Source of the DNA: an uncultured Pelagibacteraceae bacterium
Lineage (GTDB): Bacteria; Pseudomonadota; Alphaproteobacteria; Pelagibacterales; Pelagibacteraceae
Direction of reading: 5' to 3'
Assembly: GCA_902519445.1 (NCBI GenBank)
Contig: CABYJR010000003.1
Coordinates: 1-48,568 of the forward strand
DNA: 48,568 nucleotides
Shown piece after piece: positions 32,215-48,568 of this stretch. Numbering within the stretch: position 1 is the stretch's first letter; each line of letters opens with the position of its first letter. The notes below the pieces were generated by a model, which was not told the origin of the DNA, made no database searches, and saw nothing but the letters and a program-made list of their open reading frames with translations. Position numbers and translations under genes: made by a program.

Positions 32215-32991
32215 TTATTTTTCTAAATTATGTGATCTTTTTGCTATTATGGGTAAGTTCTTATAATTTTTTTTCCCATACGCGAATTCTTTTTCATCAT
32301 GTGTTGTCATAGAGCCTCCGGCATGAACAAGTATCGCATGTCCGGCAGCTATATCCCACTCATAAGCTCTAGCATTTGCTGCATAAATATCAGCTTCACC
32401 GGCAGCTAAAATACAAAATTTAAATGAACTAGACATTTTTATTGTTTTAGAAACATTATGTTTTTTATAAATATTTAAAATTTCAATCGGCGTATGGTTT
32501 GAATTTTCCAATCCTATAACTTTGCCTGAATTCTTTTTATTACAATTTAATTGAAAAGTTTTTCCCTTAAAGGTCTCGTAAGCTAGGTTTTTTCCATAAG
32601 AAAAAAACAATCTTTCTTTTGCAGGAGCGTAAATTATTCCCGCTACAGGTTTTAAATCAATTATTAAGGCAGCATTTAAAGTATATTCATCTCTTTTTTT
32701 AATATAATCTTTAGTTCCATCAATTGGGTCTATTAACCAAAAGTCATTGTGTTTATTTTCTATATTTAAATTTACAGTCTCTTCAGAAATAATAGGTATA
32801 GAAGGTGTTAAATCTTTTATTTTTCTTCTTAAAATTTTATCAACTAGCAAATCTCCATCAGTTACAGGGGATTTATCAGGTTTAATCGTAATTTTTACGC
32901 CCTTTTCGCTTATTTCTTTTGCAATTTTGCCTGCTTCTAGAAACGTATCCAAAAGGGATTCTATAGTATTTTTTAATTTTGTGTTATCCAA
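32215..32991 (-). CDS. cysQ: 3'(2'),5'-bisphosphate nucleotidase CysQ
   Basis: CysQ hydrolyses PAP (3'-phosphoadenosine 5'-phosphate) to AMP, relieving inhibition in sulfate assimilation and related transfers. The 258-residue inositol-monophosphatase-fold protein has VTDGDLLVD, PIISEET (metal Glu), LIDPIDGTKDYIKKRDEYTLNAAL (the DPIDGT metal site near residue 92) and YEWDIAAGHAIL (third Asp) around 210. It begins with TTG at 32991, inside the end of the DUF3553 gene (8-base overlap). An inositol-phosphatase activity cannot be excluded. Confidence 0.88.
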   Translation of the reverse strand: MDNTKLKNTIESLLDTFLEAGKIAKEISEKGVKITIKPDKSPVTDGDLLVDKILRRKIKDLTPSIPIISEETVNLNIENKHNDFWLIDPIDGTKDYIKKRDEYTLNAALIIDLKPVAGIIYAPAKERLFFSYGKNLAYETFKGKTFQLNCNKKNSGKVIGLENSNHTPIEILNIYKKHNVSKTIKMSSSFKFCILAAGEADIYAANARAYEWDIAAGHAILVHAGGSMTTHDEKEFAYGKKNYKNLPIIAKRSHNLEK

Positions 32992-35407: not shown

Positions 35408-35490
35408 ATTTATATATACTCCTTGGTAATTTAATTAATTGACCTTATTGAGTGGATATAGCATTCTCTGATTTTGTTATCAAATATTTT

Positions 35491-36675
35491 ATGCCCAAAA
35501 GTATAAAAACATATTTAAAAACTGCTGCAAAAGATTATTCATCTAGATCAGTAAACCCACCTGTTGTACGAGCTTCTACAATCCTATTTAGAACCATGCA
35601 AGAGTTAAGAAAATTTCAAAAGGACGTTATAAGTAAAAAAAAACCTGAAGTAGAACATTGGGATTATGGAAGATCAGGAACACAAACAACATTACAACTC
35701 CAAAAAATGCTAAGAAGATTAGAGGACGCTTATCAAGTATTTTTAACTCCGACAGGTTTTGCTGCCGTTGCTTTATCAATAATGAGCGTTTGTAGACCTG
35801 GCGATGAAATTTTAATTTCAGATGGAGTGTACAGACCAACACAAAAACTTGCAGACGATTTATTAAAAGAATTTAAAGTAAAAGCTGTTTGGTATAATCC
35901 AAATAGTTTTGAAGATTTTAGAAACAAAATCACAAGAAAAACCAAACTCATTTATGTCGAGAATCCTGGAAGCAATACCTTTGAAATGAATGATTTAGGA
36001 AAAATAGTTTCTTTAGCAAAAAGTAAAAATATATTTACAGCTATTGATAATACTTGGGCAACAGCATATTTTTTTCAACCATTAAAATTAGGTTTTGATA
36101 TAGCAATAACATCTGCAACTAAATACTATTCAGGTCACTCCGATGTTATGGCAGGTACCGTTGCAGTAAACAAAAAAGCGTATGAAAAAGTTTGGTGGTA
36201 TAATCATGTATCTGGTTATAGATTATCATCTGATGATGCTTATCTAATAATTAGAGGTTTAAGAACTTTAGATATAAGACTTGAAAAACATGAAGAAAAT
36301 ACAAAAAAAGTTATTAATTTTTTAAAAACCCAAAAAAAAATAAGCAAAATACTGTATCCGTATAAATCTTCTTCAAAGGAATTTAAATTATGGAAAAAAT
36401 ATTATTCGGGCGCTTCTGGATTATTAAGTTTAATTATAAAAAGCAAAAGTAAAAATTCAGTATATAAATTTGTAAATTCATTAGAACTTTTTGGAATTGG
36501 ATATAGTTGGGGAGGATTTGAAAGTCTTGCTGTTTATACCGATCCCGTAGAATTAGGAACAAGAAGATATTTTAAATTTGAAAAAAATGAACACTTAGTT
36601 CGTTTACATATTGGGTTAGAAGATACAAAAGATATAATTAATGATTTAAAAAGATCATTAAAATTTATTAAATGA
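35491..36675 (+). CDS. metC: Cystathionine beta-lyase-like PLP enzyme (Cys/Met metabolism family)
   Basis: I set the start at 35491 (MPKSIKTYLKTAAKDYSSRSVNPPVV), which gives the usual N-terminal length of the family; the track's GTG at 35452 adds 13 unlikely residues. The 394-residue protein shows YGRSGTQTTLQLQKMLRRLE, IYVENPGSNTFEM, AIDNTWATAYFFQPLKLGFDIAITSATKYYSGHSD (the PLP Lys in SATKY near residue 212) and GIGYSWGGFESL. It cleaves cystathionine or cysteine S-conjugates to pyruvate, ammonia and a thiol. Overlap with an MFS gene (ATGA) suggests the substrate or product is transported, and the sulfur genes downstream support a link to organosulfur use. Confidence 0.88.
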   Translation: MPKSIKTYLKTAAKDYSSRSVNPPVVRASTILFRTMQELRKFQKDVISKKKPEVEHWDYGRSGTQTTLQLQKMLRRLEDAYQVFLTPTGFAAVALSIMSVCRPGDEILISDGVYRPTQKLADDLLKEFKVKAVWYNPNSFEDFRNKITRKTKLIYVENPGSNTFEMNDLGKIVSLAKSKNIFTAIDNTWATAYFFQPLKLGFDIAITSATKYYSGHSDVMAGTVAVNKKAYEKVWWYNHVSGYRLSSDDAYLIIRGLRTLDIRLEKHEENTKKVINFLKTQKKISKILYPYKSSSKEFKLWKKYYSGASGLLSLIIKSKSKNSVYKFVNSLELFGIGYSWGGFESLAVYTDPVELGTRRYFKFEKNEHLVRLHIGLEDTKDIINDLKRSLKFIK

Positions 36676-37901
36676 CAAAAGAAAAGTTTTTTCCAAGTAG
36701 CACAGCTTTTTTAACGCTTATTTCAGCATGTTTAATAGTTGCGATATTTATGGGACTCCGCATGGTCTTTGGAATGTTTACAGATTTTTTTGTCGAAGAC
36801 TTACAGTGTACGATTACAGAGTTTGGTTTAGCAATAGGATTACAAATGCTAATGTGGGGCATGTTTGCGCCAATATTTGGTGCGTTAGCAGATAAAATTG
36901 GAAGTGGAAAAGTTACAATAATTGCAGCTTGTTTTGTAGCATTAGGAATTTATTTGCTTTATTCAGGACCAAATACAGGAATATTTTTTCAAATTAATCT
37001 TGGTTTATTAATTGGAATTGGTTTAGGTGGTACAGCAATAAGTGTTCAGATCGCAGCAGTTGGAAAACATTTCCCAAATAAAACTAGAGGAATGGCTATA
37101 GGAATTGTAGTCGCTATGGCATCAATAGGTTATTTTTTCTCTCCTATATACACAAAATTTGCTTTATCTACTTTTGGTTGGGAAAAAACACTTAATACAT
37201 ATTTGTATTTTGTTTTGTTCGGAATTATTGCTGCAATCTTTCTACGCGAAGTTAAGAAAGAAAAGAATATAAATAACAGTACTAAGGTGGATAATCAAAC
37301 TCTTACAGAGGCGTTAAAGGAAGCTCTTAATCATAAAGGTTTTATACTTTTAATACTTGGTTTTTTTGTATGCGGTTTTAATATAACTTTAGTTTCAGCA
37401 CACATACCTAGTTACATCCAAGAGCGTGGCTTTGAAATATGGACGGCAGCTGCAATTTTATCTTTAATAGGTCTTTTTAATGTTTTTGGAACATTAACAT
37501 TTGGTTATTTATCAGGAAAGTATAGTAAAAAAATATTATTGAGTATTTTATATTTTGCACGAGGAGTAGTTTTAATATTATTTTTAGTTTTGCCAACCTC
37601 AACTTATGTAGCCTTAGGATTTGGAGTGCTTTATGGTTACCTGTGGCTAGCAACTATACCACCCACAAACGGAATTATTTCACAAATTTTTGGCACAAAA
37701 TATTTAGCAACTTTATATGGAATAGTTTTTTTTAGTCATCAAATAGGATCTTTTTTAGGTGCGTATCTAGGTGGATATTTTTATGATGAATATGGATCAT
37801 TTGATTATGCTTGGTATTTATCTATAGCATTATCTTTTTTTGCAGCAGTGGTTCATTTACCTATAGATGAGAAACCGCTACCTAGACTTGCTACAGTATA
37901 A
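36672..37901 (+). CDS. Major facilitator superfamily transporter
   Basis: The 409-residue protein has twelve predicted membrane segments and the MFS loop 2-3 signature GALADKIGSGKVTIIAA near residue 72, plus the second-half equivalent FGYLSGKYSKKILLSI. The layout recalls the OFA/monocarboxylate-type carriers (RMVFGMFTDFF at the start of helix 1). It overlaps the PLP lyase by 4 bases and is followed 21 bases later by an APS-kinase-like gene, so it probably moves a sulfur compound or small organic acid across the inner membrane. The substrate is not deducible. Confidence 0.85.
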   Translation: MTKEKFFPSSTAFLTLISACLIVAIFMGLRMVFGMFTDFFVEDLQCTITEFGLAIGLQMLMWGMFAPIFGALADKIGSGKVTIIAACFVALGIYLLYSGPNTGIFFQINLGLLIGIGLGGTAISVQIAAVGKHFPNKTRGMAIGIVVAMASIGYFFSPIYTKFALSTFGWEKTLNTYLYFVLFGIIAAIFLREVKKEKNINNSTKVDNQTLTEALKEALNHKGFILLILGFFVCGFNITLVSAHIPSYIQERGFEIWTAAAILSLIGLFNVFGTLTFGYLSGKYSKKILLSILYFARGVVLILFLVLPTSTYVALGFGVLYGYLWLATIPPTNGIISQIFGTKYLATLYGIVFFSHQIGSFLGAYLGGYFYDEYGSFDYAWYLSIALSFFAAVVHLPIDEKPLPRLATV

Positions 37902-37922
37902 AAACTACAATATATAAATTTT

Positions 37923-38330
37923 ATGAAAAAAATACTTGTTATGGGTTTGCCAGGTTCTGGAAAAACAACTTTAGCATCAGAATTAGTTAATTTATTAAAA
38001 GCAAAATGGATTAACAATGACAAAGTAAGAAAAGAAGCGAATGATTGGGATTTTTCTGAAGAAGGAAGAACAAGACAAGCAAAGAGAATGGCTGAACAGG
38101 CAGAAAAATATAAACTTGAAGGAAATTATGTAGTTTGTGATTTTATTTGTCCTACGCCAAAAGCTAGGGAAATATTCAACGCAGATTTTATTATTTGGGT
38201 AGATACAATTAAAAAGGGTAGGTACGATGATACAAATGCAATGTTTGTAAAACCTGAGAAATTTGATTTTCATGTAACAACGCAAGATGCTAAAAATTGG
38301 GCAACCAAGATAGTGGAGAAAATAAAATAA
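37923..38330 (+). CDS. Adenylylsulfate-kinase-like P-loop protein
   Basis: The 135-residue protein carries Walker A GLPGSGKTTLA (8-18) and the APS-kinase-like blocks WINNDKVRKEANDWDFSEEGRTRQAKRM and VVCDFICPTPKAREIF (compare DFICP-x-x-x-R in APS kinases), then IIWVDTIKKGRYDDTN. It is shorter than normal CysC (about 200), lacking the C-terminal part. If it acts on APS it would make PAPS, but the truncated form may have another nucleotide or sugar target. It overlaps the next gene by one base (TAATG), so the two form a unit. Confidence 0.78.
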   Translation: MKKILVMGLPGSGKTTLASELVNLLKAKWINNDKVRKEANDWDFSEEGRTRQAKRMAEQAEKYKLEGNYVVCDFICPTPKAREIFNADFIIWVDTIKKGRYDDTNAMFVKPEKFDFHVTTQDAKNWATKIVEKIK

Positions 38331-38704
38331 TGTCATACAAATGGGATAATAAAAAACCAACGGCACAAATGTTAGGTAGATGGCAACCTTTCCACGATGG
38401 CCATTACGCATTATTCGAAGAAATAATTAAAAAAACTGGTCAAGTTTGCATTCAAATTAGAGATGTCCAGGGAGTAGATGACAATCCATTTGATTTTGAA
38501 ACTGTTAAAAAAAATATAGAAGAAAAATTAAATCCCAAATACAAAAATAGGTTTAAGATTATGTTGGTTCCAAATATTACTAATATTAGCTATGGAAGAG
38601 GCGTAGGATATAAAATTGAAGAAGTGGTCCTTCCAGAAAAAATTCAACAGATCTCAGCTACAAAAATTAGGGAAAAAATGAGAAAAGAAGGAAAGCTTAA
38701 ATAG
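38330..38704 (+). CDS. Small nucleotidyltransferase (cytidylyltransferase/NMNAT-like)
   Basis: The start is set at 38330 because the ATG overlaps the upstream TAA (TAATG) and gives MSYKWDNKKPTAQMLGRWQPFHDGHYALFE; the track start at 38297 lies within the kinase gene. The HxGH motif in GRWQPFHDGH and the late ISATKIREKM (ISxT/S) are the two active-site motifs of the nucleotidylyltransferase superfamily. The 124 residues are near the minimum for this fold. It forms a translational unit with the APS-kinase-like protein. Possible reactions include adenylyl or cytidylyl transfer in sulfur or phosphate compound activation. Confidence 0.8.
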   Translation: MSYKWDNKKPTAQMLGRWQPFHDGHYALFEEIIKKTGQVCIQIRDVQGVDDNPFDFETVKKNIEEKLNPKYKNRFKIMLVPNITNISYGRGVGYKIEEVVLPEKIQQISATKIREKMRKEGKLK

Positions 38705-38808
38705 CAATTACAACTTTAAGTTGATAAATATTTTGTCATAGGCCTTTAATCTTTCTTGATTAAATATACGAAAAGGATAATGATCAGCCATTAACCATGG
38801 AGGAAACA

Positions 38809-39480
38809 ATGTTTTCAAAAGAACTAAATAAAAAACTAGATGAGTATCATCTTCTAAACCACCCTTTTTACAAATCTTGGAATGAAGGTAAGCTAACTAG
38901 AGAAATAATTAAGGATTATGCTGAGCAGTATTATCAACATGTAAAAGCATTTCCTAGGTACATAAGTGCAACACATTCTTTATGCGAGGATTTAGAAAAA
39001 AGAAAAATTTTACTTGAAAATCTTCAAGATGAAGAAAAAGATGGAGCAGATCATCCAAAACTTTGGAAAAATTTTGCACTAGCAATAGGTGCTGATGCAG
39101 AGAAAATTGAAAATGTAAATAAAGAAAAATTTACATCTGAATTAATCGATAATTTTTTTAAAAATGGAAGATCAAGTTATGCAGAAGGTTTGGCATCTCT
39201 TTATACTTATGAGAGACAAATCCCTGAAATCGCAGAAACAAAAATTAGAGGTTTGAAAAATCATTATGGCGTTACATCAAAAGAAGGCCTAGAGTTTTTC
39301 GAAGTTCATAAAGCTGCTGATGTTCATCATAGACAAGCATGTGAAAAATTACTTGATGCCATGTCTAAGGAAGAACAAGAGGAGGCAGAAAAGTCAGCCT
39401 TATCTACAGCAAAGTATCTTTGGAATTTTTTAACTGGAATTGCGGTTAAACATAATATTCCAATGCAAGCTGCTGCTTAA
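38809..39480 (+). CDS. CADD-family haem-oxygenase-like diiron protein (folate/pABA related)
   Basis: The start is 38809, not 38797: the first codons of the longer ORF are GGAGG, an ideal ribosome-binding site 5 bases before this ATG. The 223-residue helical protein has the CADD signature LLNHPFYKSWNEGKL, YAEQYYQHVKAFPRYISATHS, then metal ligands in LQDEEKDGADHPKLW, YTYERQIPEIAETK and EVHKAADVHHRQ. In Chlamydia, CADD yields p-aminobenzoate from its own tyrosine and replaces the usual pab enzymes. The equivalent Tyr (HPFY) is present here. It lies just before aprM, across a hairpin. Confidence 0.82.
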   Translation: MFSKELNKKLDEYHLLNHPFYKSWNEGKLTREIIKDYAEQYYQHVKAFPRYISATHSLCEDLEKRKILLENLQDEEKDGADHPKLWKNFALAIGADAEKIENVNKEKFTSELIDNFFKNGRSSYAEGLASLYTYERQIPEIAETKIRGLKNHYGVTSKEGLEFFEVHKAADVHHRQACEKLLDAMSKEEQEEAEKSALSTAKYLWNFLTGIAVKHNIPMQAAA

Positions 39481-39506
39481 TCAATTTGGAGTTATAAAAT
39501 ATTAAA

Positions 39507-39538
39507 TAATAGACGGTTCTTTTTAGAACCGTTTATTA
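39507..39538 (+). terminator. Stable hairpin between CADD and aprM
   Basis: A 14-bp stem TAATAGACGGTTCT/AGAACCGTTTATTA (one G-T pair) with a TTTT loop lies 26 bases after the CADD stop and 25 before aprM. No T-tract follows on either strand, so it may be a partial terminator, an mRNA end protector, or an attenuator that sets aprMBA levels apart from upstream genes. Confidence 0.6.
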
Positions 39539-39563
39539 AAATTTATAAAAAAAGGAATAATAC

Positions 39564-40364
39564 TTGATTACTAATAATCCATTTTCTATTCTTTCAGAAA
39601 CTGTGCCAGCTATTGCAATGCAAAGTTTTGTTATAGTTATGGGTTTATTGGTGATTCTAGGAACTTTGGTAGACATAATTCATAAAAAAAATGTAAAATA
39701 TTTTTTTGAAAATGCAAAGAAGGCAAAAAAATCAGCTAAGAAAATACTTACAGCAAGTGAAAAAACTTCTGTTATTATTAAAACAATAGCTAGTGACATA
39801 GCTACTACATCAGAGTTAGGAGCTGGCAAAAGAAGAGTCGCACATCTCCTTGGTATGTATGGAACTATTTTGTTTTGGTTCGGCTCTGTTGTAATGATTT
39901 TTTGTTATTCTTCACCATCTTCAAATACTCCCTCAGTATGGCCAATCATGTGGCATCTCGGAGCAATAATGACTATTCTTGGAGGATCTTGGTTTTGGTT
40001 TTTTTTAAGAGTAGATGTTTATTCAGAAGCTCAACCTTGGTACAGAATTATTAAAGCTGATTTATTTGTACTAGCACTTTTAGCGACCTCTTTATTTGGT
40101 TTAATATGGTCATTTTTACAGTCCTTGAATTTGAATGATAGATGGGATGATAAAGTATTTTTGATTTTGTTTATTATATCTAACCTAGTTTTGTTTGGAG
40201 GAGTATATTGGTCAAAATTTGCTCATATGTTTTACAAACCCGGAGCCGCTATTCAAAAAAATTTAGCTGAAGCAGATGGTTCAAGAGATAATATGCCACC
40301 ACCAGCCGATGCACCTGAAAAATTTGGATTAGGTATAAAACGTGAGGCACCAAAGCACTATTAA
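39564..40364 (+). CDS. aprM: AprM, membrane anchor of adenylylsulfate reductase
   Basis: The gene starts with TTG at 39564, preceded by AAAAGGA. The 266-residue protein has about five transmembrane helices (for example AMQSFVIVMGLLVILGTLVDII, MYGTILFWFGSVVMIFCY, MWHLGAIMTILGGSWFWFFL, FVLALLATSLFGLIWSFL, ILFIISNLVLFGGVYWSKF). The long first cytoplasmic loop is Lys-rich, with GKRRVAHLLGMYG after it. It probably links AprBA to the quinone pool in sulfur oxidisers. The AprM-AprB-AprA order is the one known for SAR11 and other sulfur-oxidising proteobacteria. Confidence 0.85.
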   Translation: MITNNPFSILSETVPAIAMQSFVIVMGLLVILGTLVDIIHKKNVKYFFENAKKAKKSAKKILTASEKTSVIIKTIASDIATTSELGAGKRRVAHLLGMYGTILFWFGSVVMIFCYSSPSSNTPSVWPIMWHLGAIMTILGGSWFWFFLRVDVYSEAQPWYRIIKADLFVLALLATSLFGLIWSFLQSLNLNDRWDDKVFLILFIISNLVLFGGVYWSKFAHMFYKPGAAIQKNLAEADGSRDNMPPPADAPEKFGLGIKREAPKHY

Positions 40365-40402
40365 TATGTATAAAAATTATATAAAGAAGGAAAAAAAATA
40401 AT

Positions 40403-40873
40403 ATGTCAACTTTTGTATATATGACCCGTTGTGATGGATGTGGACATTGCGTTGACATTTGTCCATCTGACATCATGCACATTGATGAAACAATAAGACG
40501 TGCAAAAAATATCGAACCTAATTTTTGTTGGGAATGTTACTCATGTGTTAAGGCATGTCCAAATCATGCAATTGATGTTCGAGGATACGCTGACTTTGCT
40601 CCCATGGGACATAGCGTACGAGTTAGAAGAGAAGAAGAGAAGGGTACTATATCTTGGAAAATAAAATTTAGAAATGGAACTGAAAAAGATTTTGTCTCTC
40701 CGATAACAACAAAGCCATGGGGAAAATTTATTCCAAAGCTCGCTGAAGGTGAAAAACCAAATCAAGGAGAAATTAAATCTCAAATTCTTTATTCCGAACC
40801 AGAGGGATTAAACACAAAAAAAGATTTACCTACGATTAATAAAAATTCATTTAAAAAAGGGGTTTATTATTAA
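40403..40873 (+). CDS. aprB: Adenylylsulfate reductase beta subunit (electron transfer)
   Basis: The 156-residue protein begins with two 4Fe-4S ferredoxin motifs, CDGCGHCVDICP (residues 10-21) and CWECYSCVKACP (42-53). A C-terminal tail ending LNTKKDLPTIN wraps the alpha subunit in known structures. In sulfur oxidisers the AprBA pair runs toward APS: sulfite plus AMP gives APS and two electrons. AprB passes electrons from the AprA flavin to the membrane partner AprM. Its TAA overlaps the ATG of aprA. Confidence 0.96.
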   Translation: MSTFVYMTRCDGCGHCVDICPSDIMHIDETIRRAKNIEPNFCWECYSCVKACPNHAIDVRGYADFAPMGHSVRVRREEEKGTISWKIKFRNGTEKDFVSPITTKPWGKFIPKLAEGEKPNQGEIKSQILYSEPEGLNTKKDLPTINKNSFKKGVYY

Positions 40874-42732
40874 TGGCAAAGCACAAAACTCATAATGAAG
40901 AATGCGATATACTTGTAGTGGGTGGCGGAATGGCCGGTACTGGAGCAGCATTTGAAGCAAGACATTGGGGACGAGATTTAAAAATTATTTGTGTTGAAAA
41001 AGCAAACATCGATAGAAGCGGTGCAGTTGCCCAGGGCCTCTACGCGATTAATTGTTATATGGGTATGCAGTGGAATGAAAATCAACCAGAAGATCATGTA
41101 AGATATGCCCGTAACGATTTAATGGGACTAGTAAGAGAAGATTTGGGTTATGATATGGCTCGTCATGTGGATTCTACAGTTCACATGTTTGATGAATGGG
41201 GTTTACCTATGATGAAAAATCCAAAAACAGGACGTTATCAAAGAGAAGGTAAATGGCAAATAATGATTCACGGGGAAAGTTATAAACCAATAGTAGCTGA
41301 AGCAGCAAAAAAATCTGCAGATAAAATTTATAATCGAATAATGATTACTCATTTATTAATGGATGAGAATAATGAAAATAGAGTTGGTGGGGCGGTAGGT
41401 TTTAATATGCGGACAGGAGATTATTATGTTTTCAAAGCTAAAACTGTAATTGTCGCTGCAGGAGGAGCTTCACATATATTTAAACCTAGAGCAGTAGGTG
41501 AGGGAATGGGAAGAACTTGGTACGCTCCATGGAGCAATGGCTCTGCTTATGCTTTACCAATTGCTGCTGGAGCAAAAATGACTCAAATGGAAAACCGAAT
41601 TGTTTTATGTAGGTTTAAAGATGGATATGGACCGGTAGGAGCTTATTTTTTACATTTAAAAACTTACACACAAAACGCTAATGGTGAGAACTACGAAAAA
41701 AAATGGTACGAGCAAACAAAAAAATTAGTAGGAGAGTATATCGACCACCATCCGACACCAACATGTTTACGTAATCATGCCTTTGTTCAAGAAGTCATGG
41801 CCGGAGGTGGACCAATACATATGGTGACTAAAGAAGCTTTTCAAGATCCTCATCTAGAAACGGTTGGTTGGGAAAACTTTCTTGGAATGACAGTTGGACA
41901 AGCAGTTGTTTGGGCATCTCAAAATATAGATCCTAAATATACAAATCCTGAACTAACAACTTCAGAACCATATGTGATGGGTTCGCACGCAACATGTTCA
42001 GGAGCTTGGGTAAGTGGTCCAGAAGATATATCTCCACCAGAGTATTATTGGGGATATAATAGAATGATGACAGTTCAAGGTCTTTTCGGAGCAGGTGATA
42101 CTGTTGGAGGAAGTGCTCATAAATTTTCATCGGGTTCTTTTACAGAAGGACGTTTAGCTGCAAAAGCTGCTGTAAAATATATTGAAGATCAAAAAGCAAA
42201 AAATATCAAAGTTAGCGAAAAGCAATGTGAAGATTTTAAAAAAATTATATATAAACCATTAGACAATTATACTGTTGGGAGAAATGAGATTACTGGTGGT
42301 ACAGTTTCGCCAAGTTATTTTTCTCCAATTCAAGGTCTTCAACGTCTTCAAAAAATTATGGATGAATATGTTGGAGGTATTTCAGTTAATTATATGACTA
42401 ACGGAAATTTACTTAAAAAAGGACTAGAATTGTTGCAGTGGCTACAAGAAGATCTAGAACATATTGGTGCCGAAGATTATCATCAGCTTATGCGTGCATG
42501 GGAATTAAAACATCGAACAATAACATCACAGTGCGTAACTGAACATACCTTATTTCGTGAGGAAACACGTTGGCCAGGATATTATTACAGAGGAGATCAT
42601 ATGAAGTTAGACGATGAAAATTGGCATTGTTTAACAGTATCTCGTCGTGATCCTAAAACAGGGAAGTTTAAAATGGAAAAGATGCCCGTTTATCATATCA
42701 TTGGAGATGAAGATAAAAAAAAGGCCTCATAA
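40873..42732 (+). CDS. aprA: Adenylylsulfate reductase alpha subunit
   Basis: The 619-residue flavoprotein has the FAD site VVGGGMAGTGAAFEARHWG near the N-terminus, NIDRSGAVAQGLYAINCYMG, VAAGGASHIF, the catalytic Arg region RIVLCRFKDGYGPVGAYFL (about 247-265), MGSHATCSGAWVSGPED with the active-site His, and LFGAGDTVGGSAHKFSSGSFTEGRLA. These are the active-site blocks of AprA. It catalyses AMP-dependent sulfite oxidation to APS in the cytoplasm. It is translationally coupled to aprB and followed 9 bases later by an unknown 116-residue gene. Confidence 0.97.
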   Translation: MAKHKTHNEECDILVVGGGMAGTGAAFEARHWGRDLKIICVEKANIDRSGAVAQGLYAINCYMGMQWNENQPEDHVRYARNDLMGLVREDLGYDMARHVDSTVHMFDEWGLPMMKNPKTGRYQREGKWQIMIHGESYKPIVAEAAKKSADKIYNRIMITHLLMDENNENRVGGAVGFNMRTGDYYVFKAKTVIVAAGGASHIFKPRAVGEGMGRTWYAPWSNGSAYALPIAAGAKMTQMENRIVLCRFKDGYGPVGAYFLHLKTYTQNANGENYEKKWYEQTKKLVGEYIDHHPTPTCLRNHAFVQEVMAGGGPIHMVTKEAFQDPHLETVGWENFLGMTVGQAVVWASQNIDPKYTNPELTTSEPYVMGSHATCSGAWVSGPEDISPPEYYWGYNRMMTVQGLFGAGDTVGGSAHKFSSGSFTEGRLAAKAAVKYIEDQKAKNIKVSEKQCEDFKKIIYKPLDNYTVGRNEITGGTVSPSYFSPIQGLQRLQKIMDEYVGGISVNYMTNGNLLKKGLELLQWLQEDLEHIGAEDYHQLMRAWELKHRTITSQCVTEHTLFREETRWPGYYYRGDHMKLDDENWHCLTVSRRDPKTGKFKMEKMPVYHIIGDEDKKKAS

Positions 42733-42741
42733 TTTTAAAAA

Positions 42742-43092
42742 ATGAGTCTTCTTGACAAAAAAGACGACGAAATATTTAAACTGGCTGAACCCATTTGGGA
42801 CAATCTAGTAAAATCATCTAACATGAAGGATTATGGGTCATTTACTAAAGATTTTTCTTCACAGATGTTGTACGGCGCTAATGAAGTAGAACTTGGAAAA
42901 CAGTGGGCAAGCAACAAATTATTGACAAATTTATCTGAAGATAGAGAGTTCCTAGGGTGTTTAAGACGAAATGGTTTTATCACTGTCCTTTTAAAACAGA
43001 AAAGTGCTAATATTTCAGGAGATTTCCTAGGCAGGTTAGTGCTGGGGGTTGAAGATGAACAAATTAAAGTTTTTGGAGCAACAATCTTTTAG
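42742..43092 (+). CDS. AprA-linked conserved protein of unknown function, 116 residues
   Basis: The gene lies 9 bases after aprA and is certainly in its operon. The protein starts MSLLDKKDDEIFKLAEPIWDNL, then has FTKDFSSQMLYGANEVELGKQW, and a hydrophobic beta-rich C-terminal half (GFITVLLKQKSANISGDFLGRLVLGVEDEQIKVFGATIF). The pattern of helices then a curved sheet recalls NTF2/SnoaL-like folds, but this is by eye. It has one Cys (EFLGCLRRNG). No signal peptide, membrane segment or known motif is seen. It may aid AprBA assembly or sulfite binding. Confidence 0.7.
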   Translation: MSLLDKKDDEIFKLAEPIWDNLVKSSNMKDYGSFTKDFSSQMLYGANEVELGKQWASNKLLTNLSEDREFLGCLRRNGFITVLLKQKSANISGDFLGRLVLGVEDEQIKVFGATIF

Positions 43093-43150
43093 TTATAAAT
43101 TTTTAAAATATCTCTAGACAAGTACTCTTAACCCATGTTAAGAAAAAAAA

Positions 43151-43276
43151 ATGTTACAGTCTTTTAAAAAATTACCTCAACAAATAAGTCTTAATCCTCG
43201 TAAAATAGGTCTACAATTAGTACTTTTAATTTGCTGGATGGTAATTCTTATTGGAACATTTTCATTTTTAAGCTAA
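43151..43276 (+). CDS. Single-pass membrane miniprotein, 41 residues
   Basis: This short ORF, absent from the track, reads MLQSFKKLPQQISLNPRK followed by one transmembrane helix (LQLVLLICWMVILIGTFSFL). The short positively charged head and clean helix suggest a real inner-membrane protein in the gap between the aprMBA unit and the sulfite exporter. Nothing else is visible in the 43093-43339 gap. It has no recognised homologue. Confidence 0.45.
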   Translation: MLQSFKKLPQQISLNPRKIGLQLVLLICWMVILIGTFSFLS

Positions 43277-43339
43277 AAATCCATCTTTTTTCCATCTATT
43301 TATTGACATTATTATGTACTAAGAATAATTGTTAATTTT

Positions 43340-44437
43340 ATGGAAGTTTTCTTACCTATAGCAGAAGTTCAAATAAACATAGTTTTATTTCTTTTCGTAA
43401 GTTTTGTTATAGGTTTTTTATCAGGATTATTTGGTGTTGGTGGCGGTTTTTTAATGACTCCATTTTTAATTTTTATGGGAATACCCCCAGCTTATGCGGT
43501 AGCAAATGAAGCAAACAATATTCTAGCATCATCAACTTCTGGTTCTTTAACTCATTGGTTCAAAAAAACTATAGATCTTAAAATAGGTTGGATGATAATA
43601 GCAGGTGGATTGATCGGCACTGCTTTTGGTATGTTAACATTTGGATATTTTAAAGGGATAGATAAAATAGATTTAGTTATAACTTTGGCCTATATGTATG
43701 TTCTCGCCATCATAGGAAGTTTTATGCTTAGAGATGGCATTATGGAGATTGATAGGATTAAAAAAAAAGTAATAATAAAAAAAAAATTACATACTCATTA
43801 CTGGATACACGGTTTACCTTTTAGAACTAGATTTAAATCTTCCAAAGTTTATGAAAGCGCTTTAGTTCCAATTATACTAGGTATTTTTGTAGGTTTTGTT
43901 GCAGCAATTATGGGAGTCGGGGGAGCATTTTTAATGGTTCCTGCGATGATATATTTAATTGGCATGCCAACAAAATTAGTACCTGGCACTTCATTATTTG
44001 TCACAATATTTGTAACTGGTTTCGTCGTTGTTTCTCACGCTTTTGCATATAATACAATAGATCTGGTTTTAGTTTTAATTCTCATTACAGGTTCTATTTT
44101 AGGAGTTCAAACCGGTCAAAAAATTGGACAAAGACTACAGGGTTCTGAACTAAAAACTTTACTAGCTTTGCTCATGCTTTCAGTAGGAGTTTTAATGGCA
44201 TATAACACTTTTTTTAGAAATGGGGCAGACTCTCCTGCTATTAAAATTCCGACAGATAAAATTGTTGAAATAAGTGAGTTTGGTAATACAATTTTTACTA
44301 TTTCTGAAAAATACCCAATCGTTTATGGAGCTTCCTCAATATTTTTAGCATTGGTAGCTGGAGTAGCAGCATCTTTTATAAGAAAAAAATTAAGCCAATG
44401 GCGAGCTGCAAGACTTAATAAACCGGCAAAGTATTAA
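43340..44437 (+). CDS. TauE/SafE family sulfite exporter
   Basis: The 365-residue membrane protein contains the duplicated TauE/SafE motif: GFLSGLFGVGGGFLMTPFLI near residue 29 and FVAAIMGVGGAFLMVPAMIY near 193. It has about eight to nine transmembrane segments. Such proteins export sulfite or sulfoacetate, or take up organosulfur anions. Here it stands between aprBA and the sulfite-producing suyAB/xsc genes, so sulfite export is the best guess. Its TAA overlaps the ATG of a cytochrome c gene. Confidence 0.9.
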   Translation: MEVFLPIAEVQINIVLFLFVSFVIGFLSGLFGVGGGFLMTPFLIFMGIPPAYAVANEANNILASSTSGSLTHWFKKTIDLKIGWMIIAGGLIGTAFGMLTFGYFKGIDKIDLVITLAYMYVLAIIGSFMLRDGIMEIDRIKKKVIIKKKLHTHYWIHGLPFRTRFKSSKVYESALVPIILGIFVGFVAAIMGVGGAFLMVPAMIYLIGMPTKLVPGTSLFVTIFVTGFVVVSHAFAYNTIDLVLVLILITGSILGVQTGQKIGQRLQGSELKTLLALLMLSVGVLMAYNTFFRNGADSPAIKIPTDKIVEISEFGNTIFTISEKYPIVYGASSIFLALVAGVAASFIRKKLSQWRAARLNKPAKY

Positions 44438-44754
44438 TGAATAAAATATTTTTTAAAATAATATTTTTAATTTTAATAATAATTTTCACTACATCAAGTA
44501 ATGCAGACGATAAGATGGCCATGGGTTTAGAAGTTTATAACAATAAAGCCCAGTGCGGCGTTTGCCATACTTTAGAATCCGCAGGTTCTAACGGGCAAAT
44601 CGGTCCAAATCTAGATGTTGTTAAACCAACTATAGAACAAATTATTTTGACCGTTACTAATGGAATTGGAGTGATGCCTTCGTTTAAAGATACACTTTCT
44701 AAAGAAGAAATAGAATCTTTAGCTCATTACGTTTTTAATAGTACTAATAAATAA
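44437..44754 (+). CDS. Periplasmic class I cytochrome c
   Basis: A signal peptide (IFFKIIFLILIIIFTTSSNA, cleaved near residue 23) leads to a small mature domain with the haem-binding motif CGVCH around residue 40 and the distal Met in GVMPSFKDTLS. The length of 105 residues is that of small monohaem cytochromes such as SorB or c5-like proteins. The one-base overlap with the exporter suggests joint function: periplasmic sulfite or thiosulfate oxidation with this cytochrome as electron acceptor. A periplasmic sulfite dehydrogenase (sorA) is not in the window. Confidence 0.9.
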   Translation: MNKIFFKIIFLILIIIFTTSSNADDKMAMGLEVYNNKAQCGVCHTLESAGSNGQIGPNLDVVKPTIEQIILTVTNGIGVMPSFKDTLSKEEIESLAHYVFNSTNK

Positions 44755-44764
44755 TTTAAATTCT

Positions 44765-45931
44765 TTAGGCGCTTCTGTAGAGTTTAGTCATGACAAATTC
44801 TTTATGACCCAAAGCTTCAGCACAAGTTAATCTACCATTAGCTACTCTAATAGTTGTTTTTATCAATTCATCACCAGCTTCTGATAGATTCATTTCTCTA
44901 GAAAGAATTTTTGATACATCGCAGTCTATATGTTCTCCCATGGATTTTACTGTTAATGGGTTAGCTGTTAATTTTATAACTGGTTCAATTGGGTTGCCCA
45001 CTATATTACCTTGTCCTGTTGGAAATAAATGAATATTAAAACCTGCTGCTGCTTGAAGAGTTACACATTCTGCTGCTGCAGAAGAAGTATCCATAAAATA
45101 TAAACCTTTACCTTTAGTTGGTGCTTCAGCCGGTTCTAACACATCAATAAATTTACAAGATCCAATTTTTTGAAAGTTTCCAAAAGCTTTTTCCTCAATA
45201 GTTGTAAGACCTCCAGCTATATTTCCAGCAGTAGGCTGGCTTTCTGAAAGGTCATCAGTAGCTTCTCTAAGAATAAAATCATTATAAGCACTCCAAGTTT
45301 TCATGAATTTTTTTGAGGCCTCAGGAGTAGCTCCTCTTTTAGCACAAACAGTTTCAGCACCTGTTAGTTCAGATGTTTCACCAAAACATAAGTGAACTCC
45401 AAGTGGTTCTAATTTATCCATAAGATTTCCAACTGTTGGATTTGAAGCTAGACCTGATGTGGTATCAGATTCACCACATTTAACTGATATCCATAAATCA
45501 CTTAAAGGGCATTCTTCTCTTTGTTTTTCAGAGGCCCACATTACAAATTCTTGCGCTTTTTTTGATGCCTTCATCACAGTTCCAATGTCGCCTGTACGTT
45601 CTATATGAAAACCTTCAACAGGCTTTCCTGTTTTTGATATTCCATCCACAATTCTTTTTGTCCACTTAGGTTCAATACCTATAACTATAACAGCAGCTAC
45701 ATTTGGATTACTTCCAGTTCCGATCATTGTCCTAAAATGTAATTCTAGATCCGCTCCGAATTGAAGTCTTCCATAAGAATGAGGTAAAGCAATTGTGCCT
45801 TTAATATTATTTGCTACTGCTTCCGCGCATGCATTTGAAATATCATCTACCGGAAGAATAATTACATGATTTCTTGTACCAGCTCTTCCGTTTTCTCTTT
45901 TATATCCTAAAAAACTTTTTGGAATTTCCAT
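44765..45931 (-). CDS. suyB: (2R)-sulfolactate sulfo-lyase subunit beta (UxaA family)
   Basis: SuyAB splits sulfolactate into pyruvate and sulfite. The 388-residue protein belongs to the altronate/galactarate dehydratase family, with [21 protein letters not shown] at the start, [66 protein letters not shown] and [19 protein letters not shown]. Length and motifs match known SuyB (about 389). Altronate dehydratase remains an alternative, but the split into a 95- and a 388-residue subunit and the divergent xsc make a sulfonate role much more likely. It starts 4 bases after suyA. Confidence 0.83.
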
Positions 45932-45935
45932 GATA

Positions 45936-46223
45936 TTACCACTTCTTAGTTTTTACATTTTGAACATGTACATGCTCACCTTTTTTTATTGATTTAACTA
46001 CTTTGCCAATATCGTGTCCATATTTTAAAATAGTATCCCCTTCCTTAAGGTCTTGAAGTGCAATTTTGTGACCAAGAGGGATTTCGTTGATAGATTTTAT
46101 TTTAATTGTTTTATCATTTTCCATTATCCAACCTGTACATTCTTGATTTTTGGACGTTTTATCAATAACGACAACCGCCACATTGTCTTTTTCGTCGTGA
46201 ATTATCAAATCTGTTCGAGACAT
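45936..46223 (-). CDS. suyA: (2R)-sulfolactate sulfo-lyase subunit alpha (SAF domain)
   Basis: The start at 46223 ([21 protein letters not shown]) is chosen because it follows AGGAAA and gives a 95-residue SAF-domain protein like known SuyA; the track ORF adds 69 unrelated residues that lie across xsc. The visible SAF features are [43 protein letters not shown], typical of the small subunit of sugar-acid dehydratases. It probably closes over the active site of SuyB. The gene is divergent from xsc with a 60-base shared control region. Confidence 0.85.
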
Positions 46224-46283
46224 TTTCCTACTGGATATAGCCTTAAAATTGATATATTTAAAGTATTTTTTAAGGATTTTATC

Positions 46284-48068
46284 ATGACTAAAATGACAAC
46301 AGAAGAAGCTTTTGTAAAAGTTCTTCAAATGCACGGAATAGAACATTCTTTTGGAATTATAGGTTCCGCTTTTATGCCAATCTCTGATCTTTTCCCTAAA
46401 GCCGGTATAACCTTTTGGGATGTTGCCCATGAATCAAATGGCGGCCTGATAGCTGATGGTTACACTCGTGCTACAGGTAAAATCGCTATGTGTATTGCAC
46501 AAAATGGACCAGGAATTACAGGTTTAGTAACCCCAATTAAAACATCATACTGGAATCACACTCCTATGCTTTTAGTAACGCCACAAGCAGCAAACAAAAC
46601 AATAGGTCAAGGAGGATTTCAAGAAGTTGAACAGATGAATCTTTTTAAAGATATGGTTTGTTATCAAGAGGAAGTTCGCGATCCATCACGTGTGGCAGAA
46701 GTTTTAAATCGTGTAATAGAAAAAGCAATAAGAGGATCTGCTCCAGCACAAATTAACATTCCGAGAGATTATTGGACACAAGTAGTTGATATAGAATTAC
46801 CTCCAATTGTTCGACTAGAAAAACAAGCAGGAGGGTCAAGCGCAGTTGCCGAAGCTGCTAAACTATTATCCAATTCAAAATTTCCAGTTATATTATCAGG
46901 TGCAGGCGTAGTTATTGGTAACGCAATAGAAGATTGTAAGAAATTGGCAGAACGTTTAGATGCTCCTGTGTGTTCAGGATATCAACATAATGATAGTTTT
47001 CCCGGAAGTCATCCTCTTGCAGTAGGACCTTTGGGATACAACGGTTCCAAAGCTGCTATGCAGTTAATTTCTAAGGCAGATGTAGTTTTAGCTTTAGGAA
47101 CAAGATTAAATCCTTTTTCAACGTTGCCAGGTTATGGAATTGATTACTGGCCAAAAAAAGCAAGCATTATTCAAGTTGATATGAATTCAGATAGAATTGG
47201 TTTAACCAAAAAAGTAACAGTTGGAATTTGTGGTGATGCAAAATTAGTAACACAACAACTGTTGGCTAAATTGTCAAAAAATGCAGGAGATACAGATAGA
47301 GATAAACGTAAGGCATTAATACACCAAACTAAATCAGCATGGCTTCAGACTCTTACAAGTTTAGATCATGAAGAAGATGATCCAGGAACAACGTGGAATA
47401 AAGATGCGAGAAAAAGAGATAAAGACAGAATGTCACCACGTATGGCATGGAGAGCAATACAAGCTGGACTTCCATCAAATGCAATCATCTCAAGTGATAT
47501 TGGAAACAATTGTGCTATTGGTAATGCTTATCCAACTTTTGAAAAAGGAAGAAAATATTTAGCTCCAGGGCTTTTCGGACCATGTGGTTATGGATTTCCC
47601 GCTATTCTTGGCGCTAAAATTGGATGTCCGGATATTCCTGTTGTTGGTTTTGCTGGAGACGGTGCTTTTGGAATTAGTATGAGCGAAATGAGTTCATGTA
47701 ATCGCAAAGAGTGGCCGTCAATTACTATGGTAATTTTTAGAAATTATCAATGGGGAGCAGAAAAAAGAAACTCAATACTTTGGTTTGATGATAATTTTGT
47801 AGGAACCGAATTAGATCCAGATTTAAGTTATGCTAAAGTTGCTGAAGGATGTGGTTTAAAAGGAGTTCAAGTTAAAACACAAGAAAAACTTACTGAAGCT
47901 TTAAAAAAATCCTGTGAGGAACAAAAAAAAGGAGTAACTACTTTTATCGAGGTTATCTTAAACCAAGAGTTAGGCGAACCTTTTAGAAGAGATGCTATGA
48001 AAAAACCAGTTAAAGTAGCAGGTATTAATAAAAGCGACATGAAACCTCAAAAGGTAATTACAAGCTAA
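46284..48068 (+). CDS. xsc: Sulfoacetaldehyde acetyltransferase
   Basis: Xsc uses thiamine diphosphate and phosphate to turn sulfoacetaldehyde into acetyl phosphate and sulfite; it is the key C-S cleaving enzyme for taurine and isethionate. The start at 46284 (AAGGA seven bases before) gives 594 residues, the usual length; the track's start at 46053 is not credible. The protein shows DVAHESNGGLIADGYTRATGKI (cofactor Glu), GQGGFQEVEQMNLFKDM, a central Rossmann domain with LALGTRLNPF, and GFAGDGAFGISMSEM...NYQWGAEKRNS for TPP/Mg binding. No taurine dehydrogenase or pta is in view. Its stop interlocks with the convergent M24 gene. Confidence 0.95.
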   Translation: MTKMTTEEAFVKVLQMHGIEHSFGIIGSAFMPISDLFPKAGITFWDVAHESNGGLIADGYTRATGKIAMCIAQNGPGITGLVTPIKTSYWNHTPMLLVTPQAANKTIGQGGFQEVEQMNLFKDMVCYQEEVRDPSRVAEVLNRVIEKAIRGSAPAQINIPRDYWTQVVDIELPPIVRLEKQAGGSSAVAEAAKLLSNSKFPVILSGAGVVIGNAIEDCKKLAERLDAPVCSGYQHNDSFPGSHPLAVGPLGYNGSKAAMQLISKADVVLALGTRLNPFSTLPGYGIDYWPKKASIIQVDMNSDRIGLTKKVTVGICGDAKLVTQQLLAKLSKNAGDTDRDKRKALIHQTKSAWLQTLTSLDHEEDDPGTTWNKDARKRDKDRMSPRMAWRAIQAGLPSNAIISSDIGNNCAIGNAYPTFEKGRKYLAPGLFGPCGYGFPAILGAKIGCPDIPVVGFAGDGAFGISMSEMSSCNRKEWPSITMVIFRNYQWGAEKRNSILWFDDNFVGTELDPDLSYAKVAEGCGLKGVQVKTQEKLTEALKKSCEEQKKGVTTFIEVILNQELGEPFRRDAMKKPVKVAGINKSDMKPQKVITS

Positions 48069-48568
48069 AGAATAACAAGATCAAGTTTTTGTTTTCCAAG
48101 TCTTTCGTTTCCTTTTTCAGTAACAAGATAAGTTTCCCCCAAATTCATTGCTAGTTGGTTTTTCGAATCCATAAGTATCATATGCATAAAAAATACCATT
48201 CCAGGTTTTAAAATTAGCGGGTTGTTTGCGAAGATCATTGGTGGCACATCCATCCAATTAGGAGAAAAAGTAGCTCCTAATGAATAACCACAAGCATTCA
48301 TTCTAGACTTATTATAACCAAGATCATCAAATGTTTTGGCATGTTCGTTAAAAACCTCTCCAACTGTATTGCCAGATATAAGTTTTTCTTTGCATTTAGT
48401 TAAAGCCTCAAGACAAGCTTCATGCATTTTGTAATGTTTTGGATTTGCTTTACCTATAGGTATAGTTCTCATCATAGCTGAGTGATAGTGCTTATAAGCT
48501 CCAGCCCATTCTATTGTTAATTGATCTGGGTTAGATAAAATTCTTTTTTCAGCTTGGTATCTACATAA
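48065..48568 (-). CDS. M24-family metallopeptidase-like protein (creatinase/aminopeptidase P fold), partial
   Basis: The frame is open to the right edge, so the N-terminal part is missing; the ORF-track Met at 48475 is internal. The visible 167 residues are the end of the pita-bread domain: ILSNPDQLTIEWAGAYKHYH, MMRTIPIGKANPKHYKMHEACLEALTKCKEKLISGNT, ACGYSLGATFSPNWMDVPP, LILKPGMVFFMHMILMDSKNQLAMNLGETYLVTEKGNE. These are M24 C-terminal blocks, but the usual late metal Glu/His pattern is altered (ACGYSLG in place of GHGxG), so it may be a non-peptidase member acting on a small amide. It is convergent with xsc, sharing a CTAA stop overlap. Confidence 0.72.
   Translation of the reverse strand, partial: LCRYQAEKRILSNPDQLTIEWAGAYKHYHSAMMRTIPIGKANPKHYKMHEACLEALTKCKEKLISGNTVGEVFNEHAKTFDDLGYNKSRMNACGYSLGATFSPNWMDVPPMIFANNPLILKPGMVFFMHMILMDSKNQLAMNLGETYLVTEKGNERLGKQKLDLVIL

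Follow-up and report, generated by a model that had tools for sequence, protein, structure and literature searches.

A probable SAR11 sulfonate-sulfite disposal locus with a strict companion of aprA and a candidate module for APS turnover

SAR11 bacteria are among the most abundant marine organisms, and taurine and related sulfonates presumably serve them as food. In the available excerpts of previous studies, suyAB, xsc and aprAB are reported as core or near-core genes of the Pelagibacteraceae, with sulfite removal proposed as their role (PMC12636525; 2025, ISME J), aprBA transcripts are lower under sulfur limitation, with detoxification favoured (PMC5069961), and SAR11 peptides for Tpa, Xsc and AprAB are reviewed together with the absence of ATP sulfurylase from most SAR11 (PMC10356861). 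The lack of ATP sulfurylase bears on how these cells may dispose of sulfite and on any energy that they might gain from it. The lineage-I aprM of sulfur oxidisers has also been described, and AprM was proposed as the membrane anchor of AprBA (PMC2211403). The window analysed here (48,568 nucleotides, contig CABYJR010000003.1 of an uncultured Pelagibacteraceae bacterium) makes up all of contig C3; the SAR11 genome to which it belongs is incomplete (733 kb, 52 contigs, 64% complete). Between 35.5 and 48.07 kb it carries, in order, metC, an MFS transporter gene, kin, nt, a CADD gene, aprM, aprB, aprA, p116, tauE, a cytochrome c gene, suyBA and xsc. An initial annotation of the window had proposed that sulfite freed from sulfonates is oxidised through adenosine 5'-phosphosulfate (APS), an idea that is already published, since the three SAR11 papers, as excerpted, cover sulfite removal by suyAB, xsc and aprAB. 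The clustering is genuine and conserved, and most of its outline has been known before; the new content is p116 and the gene pair kin-nt. We consider it likely that the locus is a SAR11 sulfonate-sulfite disposal block, with APS most likely turned over by kin-nt.

Gene names in the window were tested by profile searches against Pfam and NCBIfam, with bit scores compared to cut-offs. All genes named in the initial annotation are present and backed by profiles; p116 and CADD had gone unmentioned there. The features that concern sulfur are as follows.

37923..38330, + strand: kin, short APS-kinase-like P-loop kinase (PF01583 APS_kinase, 38.7 bits, above the Pfam cut-off)
38330..38704, + strand: nt, 124-aa HUP-type nucleotidyltransferase (PF01467, marginal)
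39564..40364, + strand: aprM, membrane protein that would take AprBA electrons (weak QmoC match; position upstream of aprBA)
40403..40873, + strand: aprB, APS reductase beta subunit, Fe-S (TIGR02060, 188.7 bits, cut-off 135.65; PF12139)
40873..42732, + strand: aprA, APS reductase alpha subunit, sulfur-oxidiser lineage I (TIGR02061, 998 bits, cut-off 642)
42742..43092, + strand: p116, 116-aa orphan with a predicted NTF2/SnoaL fold, strict companion of aprA
43340..44437, + strand: tauE, TauE/SafE-family exporter, probably for sulfite/sulfate (PF01925, 151.5 bits)
44437..44754, + strand: small SorU-like c-type cytochrome (NF052248, 92.8 bits, cut-off 100)
44765..45931, - strand: suyB, sulfolactate sulfo-lyase large subunit by homology (PF20629 and PF04295, GD_AH_second and GD_AH_C)
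45936..46223, - strand: suyA, sulfolactate sulfo-lyase small subunit by homology (weak SAF; paired with suyB in relatives)
46284..48068, + strand: xsc, sulfoacetaldehyde acetyltransferase (TIGR03457, 956.7 bits, cut-off 676.4)

The xsc frame as listed begins too early (46053); the homologous start lies near 46284, and suyA and xsc are therefore divergent without overlap, as suyBA as a whole is from xsc.

To place the locus among its relatives, 118 Pelagibacterales genomes (families f1 and f2 among them) were surveyed for gene content, and gene order was scored, as far as each contig extends, in 80 aprA loci of publicly available Pelagibacteraceae genomes. The order aprM-aprB-aprA-p116-tauE-suyBA-xsc is kept in these 80 related loci where the contig reaches that far. 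Sulfonate and apr genes are not clustered by chance, since p116, suyA, suyB and xsc are found in 53/53 loci whose sequence extends 8 kb or more beyond aprA, and tauE in 51 of them. At the level of genomes, aprA and a true xsc occur together in 92, aprA alone in 1, xsc alone in 8 and neither gene in 17 (Fisher 1.3e-13; it should be noted that Fisher values across the 118 genomes overstate independence because of shared ancestry). In several of the genomes with xsc alone the gene lies at the edge of a contig, and these cases may reflect gaps in the assembly. Where both genes lie on the same contig, the gap between them has a median of 3.6 kb in family f1 (above 8 kb in 3/76) and spans 12.6-19.4 kb in family f2. 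The co-occurrence of xsc/suyAB with aprMBA, which the initial annotation had proposed to check across SAR11, therefore holds, the genes adjoining in nearly all aprA-bearing relatives; rare adjacency or a defective AprA would have told against its idea, and adjacency is near-universal while the AprA catalytic residues are intact. Its view of one genetic unit that includes the pyridoxal-phosphate lyase and the MFS carrier is not supported, since metC encodes a standard cystathionine beta-lyase and CADD belongs to p-aminobenzoate synthesis. One genome (G037; L230) has lost aprMBA, p116, suyAB and xsc, and CADD, nt and tauE remain there side by side.

The APS reductase matches lineage I of sulfur oxidisers in its AprA and AprB equivalog profiles, its catalytic residues and the aprM gene directly upstream. 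The equivalents of Asn74, Glu141, Trp234, Arg265, Arg317 and His398 are all conserved, and position 261 is Ile, typical of lineage I (A. fulgidus numbering, as in PMC2211403). Judged by these residues, the active site of AprA is intact and of the lineage I type. Directly 5' of aprBA, aprM is found in 55/55 related loci that extend far enough in that direction.

The gene that follows aprA, p116, has no sequence match in Pfam, NCBIfam, PHROG or PDB. It is present in the identical 93/118 genomes that carry aprA (one of these aprA genes being a contig-edge fragment), and its start lies 10-59 nt past aprA in 80/80 loci; one further family of the Alphaproteobacteria, f149, likewise has p116 behind aprA. 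Its AlphaFold model (mean predicted local distance difference test score 92.6) finds NTF2/SnoaL-like proteins as best Foldseek matches (best E 1.1e-3, template modelling score up to 0.62), and the predicted structure is an NTF2-like alpha+beta cone fold. The simplest reading is that p116 would act as a stable companion of AprBA or as an aid to its assembly or electron transfer. The strict pairing of p116 with aprA looks new.

The sulfonate lyases flank the other end of the block. SuyAB has the expected split architecture of small and large subunits, with a weak SAF match (18.8 bits vs 21). SuyB scores 158.8 bits against the galactarate dehydratase profile (cut-off 730.85), the libraries used holding no dedicated sulfolactate-lyase profile, and is 65-70% identical to plasmid genes that bear only the annotation "UxaA family hydrolase". 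One homologue at 65% identity, in Cupriavidus, adjoins hpsN/hpsO, which encode sulfopropanediol dehydrogenases, and another plasmid homologue is followed by a putative sulfate exporter gene. A YeiH-family putative sulfate exporter lies between tauE and suyB in 19/53 SAR11 loci (e.g. L028:13553-14653), and TauE itself probably exports sulfite/sulfate, to go by its family. The slot of the cytochrome c, which falls below the SorU cut-off, is variable, and other genes often stand there in relatives. Beside the lyases, a homocysteine S-methyltransferase-like gene adjoins suyB in relatives of the window genome (L003, L007, L027). In family f2, an omega-aminotransferase and a dimethylglycine-dehydrogenase-like gene precede xsc (L211:13952-19517, L212:9511-15073), and the aminotransferase could convert taurine to sulfoacetaldehyde.

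The fate of APS has to be read against the distribution of ATP sulfurylase (Sat). The initial annotation had reported no classic ATP sulfurylase in the window and suggested a search elsewhere in the genome; PF01747 is absent there as well, at 64% completeness, and is missing from 113/118 genomes in total and present in 5/118. Since there is no Sat, turnover of APS would most likely fall to kin-nt, and the use of sulfite for energy that the initial annotation had also proposed is hypothetical. The kin product has a P-loop and a D-x-D-x-x-R-like motif, lacks the FTG lid and fails the APS kinase CysC equivalog (TIGR00455, 30.7 vs 138.7 bits); cysC is listed in the same isolates as aprA in a table of the excerpted PMC5069961, and this is presumably the kin gene. 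The nt product is shorter than NadM (124 vs ~168-181 aa), and a reduced acceptor region could suit an acceptor as small as sulfate. Within SAR11, nt and aprA occur together in 84 genomes, each without the other in 9 and 9, and are both missing from 16 (Fisher 8e-8), the corresponding counts within family f2 being 11/0/0/7. The pair is convergent to p116 in 10/10 aprA loci fetched from family f2, whereas genera g1 and g6 show the opposite arrangement, with nt upstream of aprM.

Further evidence comes from outside SAR11. The two proteins correspond to the first and second halves of phrog_10255, and nt has viral relatives in at least 218 stretches; among the best 80 of the 218, kin and nt are fused in 58 and side by side in some others (L081-L160). 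Many of the viral settings are T4-like, near recA-like/uvsX and uvsY-like genes recognised by eye, and fused kin-nt is also found in five cultured phages of Stenotrophomonas, Xanthomonas and Clavibacter (L213, L235 and L236 among the loci). For the fused phage protein, the closest PDB entries by sequence and by fold are APS kinases. On haloarchaeal plasmids, the fusion partner of nt is a full-length APS kinase (TIGR00455, 147.8 bits, cut-off 138.7) in which the FTG lid is present, and a sulfotransferase gene lies just 5' of the fusion in 8/8 annotated plasmids, these being related operons that count as one setting. With this fusion as query, no match was found among the viral contigs. In Microvirga lotononidis, fused kin-nt lies between cysD-cysN and a sulfotransferase gene, the product of which we take to be NodH-like. 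The Microvirga CysN has DUF2061 where NodQ-type proteins have a kinase domain (L217:7755-9344), and three viral contigs encode a small protein of the DUF2061 type that overlaps the kin-nt start (L128:149-430, L134:4309-4590, L148:1086-1310). These sulfotransferase and cysDN settings point to sulfate, APS or 3'-phosphoadenosine 5'-phosphosulfate (PAPS) chemistry for kin-nt, a link that looks new. Because of the haloarchaeal fusion beside sulfotransferases and the Microvirga setting, kin-nt would be the best candidate for APS turnover, perhaps as a compact ATP-sulfurylase-like enzyme. That kin-nt acts on APS, PAPS or sulfate seems to us about an even call, and a sulfurylase-like role of nt somewhat improbable.

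Several observations weigh against such a role. No PF01747 match is found in nt, which by sequence resembles a shortened nicotinamide mononucleotide (NMN) adenylyltransferase, and profile comparison with SAR11 Sat proteins by hhalign gave no support (probability 7). In cultured phages kin-nt lies near NADAR and MazG-like genes, and Microvirga also has CysDN, so that a sulfurylase nt would be redundant there. Within SAR11, genus g3 places kin-nt far from apr, 9 aprA-bearing genomes are without nt, one of the aprA-bearing genomes (G072) has neither nt nor any HIT gene, and some kin-nt genes have no sulfur neighbours (e.g. G062, G049). Against the disposal reading as a whole, release of sulfate from taurine has not been demonstrated for SAR11, according to the excerpted PMC10356861. 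The idea that kin-nt is dedicated to apr throughout SAR11 was dropped in view of genus g3, in which several genomes scored as lacking aprA seem to owe this to gaps in the assembly, with xsc or pabB lying at the edge of a contig. A PDB match of nt to Crov588 was rejected as many weak repeat matches spread over a leucine-rich-repeat protein.

For Xsc, SuyAB and AprBA the reactions are established at the level of their families, and the present analysis shows that the genes are there, how they are linked and that the AprA active site is kept. On this basis, Xsc would cleave sulfoacetaldehyde, made elsewhere from taurine or isethionate, to acetyl phosphate and sulfite, and SuyAB would cleave sulfolactate to pyruvate and sulfite, both in the cytoplasm. 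AprBA, with p116 as a putative small NTF2-fold partner, would convert sulfite and AMP to APS, and AprM would pass the two electrons to the quinone pool. Surplus sulfite or product may be exported by TauE, and APS would most likely be turned over by kin-nt in the absence of Sat. A more specific proposal is that kin-nt forms a compact sulfate-activation enzyme, nt representing a new 124-aa ATP-sulfurylase-like type of adenylyltransferase and kin a trimmed APS kinase, with p116 as a dedicated partner of AprBA; we put this forward tentatively, as possible rather than probable.

A different fate of APS has to be considered, in which the locus serves detoxification only: AprBA would make APS, and a HIT-family protein would hydrolyse or phosphorolyse it to AMP and sulfate without ATP gain, kin-nt being unrelated. 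Genes for pabBAC-HIT lie directly upstream of aprM in 43/55 loci (e.g. L015:8198-8599, L027:13344-13742), and in other lineages a HIT gene stands in the suyAB operon behind suyB; however, the HIT gene is apparently co-transcribed with pabABC and may simply ride along, aprA-bearing genomes of family f2 have one HIT gene only, and both G072 and the window's own cluster are without HIT. ADP sulfurylase is a relative of the HIT/GalT superfamily, and its report counts towards such a route. That enzyme (APS:phosphate adenylyltransferase) is cited in PMC6382920, and the excerpted PMC5069961 favours detoxification. On balance we regard this explanation as unlikely. A strict alternation of HIT and nt as APS enzymes is weakened by G072, which has aprA and neither of the two, and by the linkage of HIT to pabABC.

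Alternatively, kin-nt could be a nucleotide or NAD module of phage origin (a NadR-like kinase with an NMN adenylyltransferase) that neighbours apr by chance. The best matches of nt are NadM-type enzymes, T4-like viral contigs commonly carry the fused form near uvsX/uvsY, a cultured phage has it beside NADAR, and the pair is mobile within SAR11, as G062 and G049 illustrate. Against this, the best matches of kin are APS kinases by both sequence and fold, nt is shorter than NadM, and the APS kinase fusion beside sulfotransferase genes on all eight annotated haloarchaeal plasmids, together with the Microvirga sulfation operon, is hard to square with an NAD module; we see a real but minority chance for it. 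It is very improbable, in our judgement, that a molybdenum sulfite dehydrogenase with a SorU-like cytochrome is the main sulfite oxidiser and AprBA secondary. The cytochrome c beside tauE comes close to SorU, but PF00174 was found neither in the window's own genome (64% complete) nor in 84/118 genomes, and longer copies of sulfite-oxidase size belong to the apr-less genera g2, g4 and g5 and to few apr-bearing genomes.

Several apr-less SAR11 genera (G001, G009, G066, G074) carry 400-aa molybdenum oxidoreductases of sulfite-oxidase size, and these genera may oxidise sulfite by another route.

For the proposed disposal block itself, gene context puts forward candidates for three roles: kin-nt could turn over APS, p116 could accompany APS reductase, and TauE/YeiH could serve in export. 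Should nt indeed activate sulfate, a new small enzyme type would link SAR11, phages, haloarchaea and a nodulating bacterium, and kin-nt run towards ATP in SAR11 would complete the path from sulfonate through sulfite and APS to sulfate and ATP. Marine phages bear the same kin-nt module as SAR11.

The remaining genes of the cluster are the following.

35479..36675, + strand: metC, cystathionine beta-lyase (TIGR01324, 370.9 bits, cut-off 365.9)
36672..37901, + strand: MFS transporter (PF07690)
38797..39480, + strand: CADD-family p-aminobenzoate synthase (TIGR04305, 305.9 bits, cut-off 200)

These metC/MFS and CADD genes are probably passengers and not parts of the pathway. The CADD protein family has been described as a p-aminobenzoate synthase (PMC11965152). 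In most relatives pabB-pabA-pabC fills the CADD slot (L001-L080); the slot upstream of apr holds pabB in 44 and CADD in 11 of the 55 loci and both in none, and CADD occurs together with a close pabB in 0/118 genomes. This mutual replacement is genetic support for CADD making p-aminobenzoate in SAR11. Further out, a CysQ-like bisphosphate nucleotidase gene (32215-32991; TIGR01331, 201 bits vs cut-off 229) lies ~7 kb upstream of aprM, and an M24 peptidase gene (ectoine-hydrolase-like, 48065-48568) adjoins xsc and is cut by the contig end.

Compared with known systems, kin-nt resembles PAPS synthetase, an APS kinase fused to ATP sulfurylase, in the order of kinase then HUP nucleotidyltransferase and in the sulfotransferase neighbours in haloarchaea; it differs in that nt is only 124 aa and without PF01747 signal, any such activity of kin-nt being putative. 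The locus as a whole has the same genes, organisms and flow from sulfonate to sulfite to APS as the SAR11 suyAB/xsc/aprAB model (PMC12636525; PMC5069961; work cited in PMC10356861). The excerpted papers give presence and function, and conserved linkage, p116 and kin-nt are not among the contents of those excerpts; conserved synteny is an addition of the present analysis to that model. Xsc and AprAB for sulfite oxidation are shared with the route from taurine through Xsc and AprAB to Sat of 'Candidatus (Ca.) Taurinisymbion ianthellae' (PMC10356861, as excerpted), which has Sat and Qmo, whereas SAR11 has AprM and, in 113 of the 118 genomes, no Sat. Finally, the order aprM-aprB-aprA, the active site and Ile261 are common to SAR11 and the sulfur-oxidiser AprBA of lineage I (PMC2211403), and in SAR11 it is p116 that then follows aprA.

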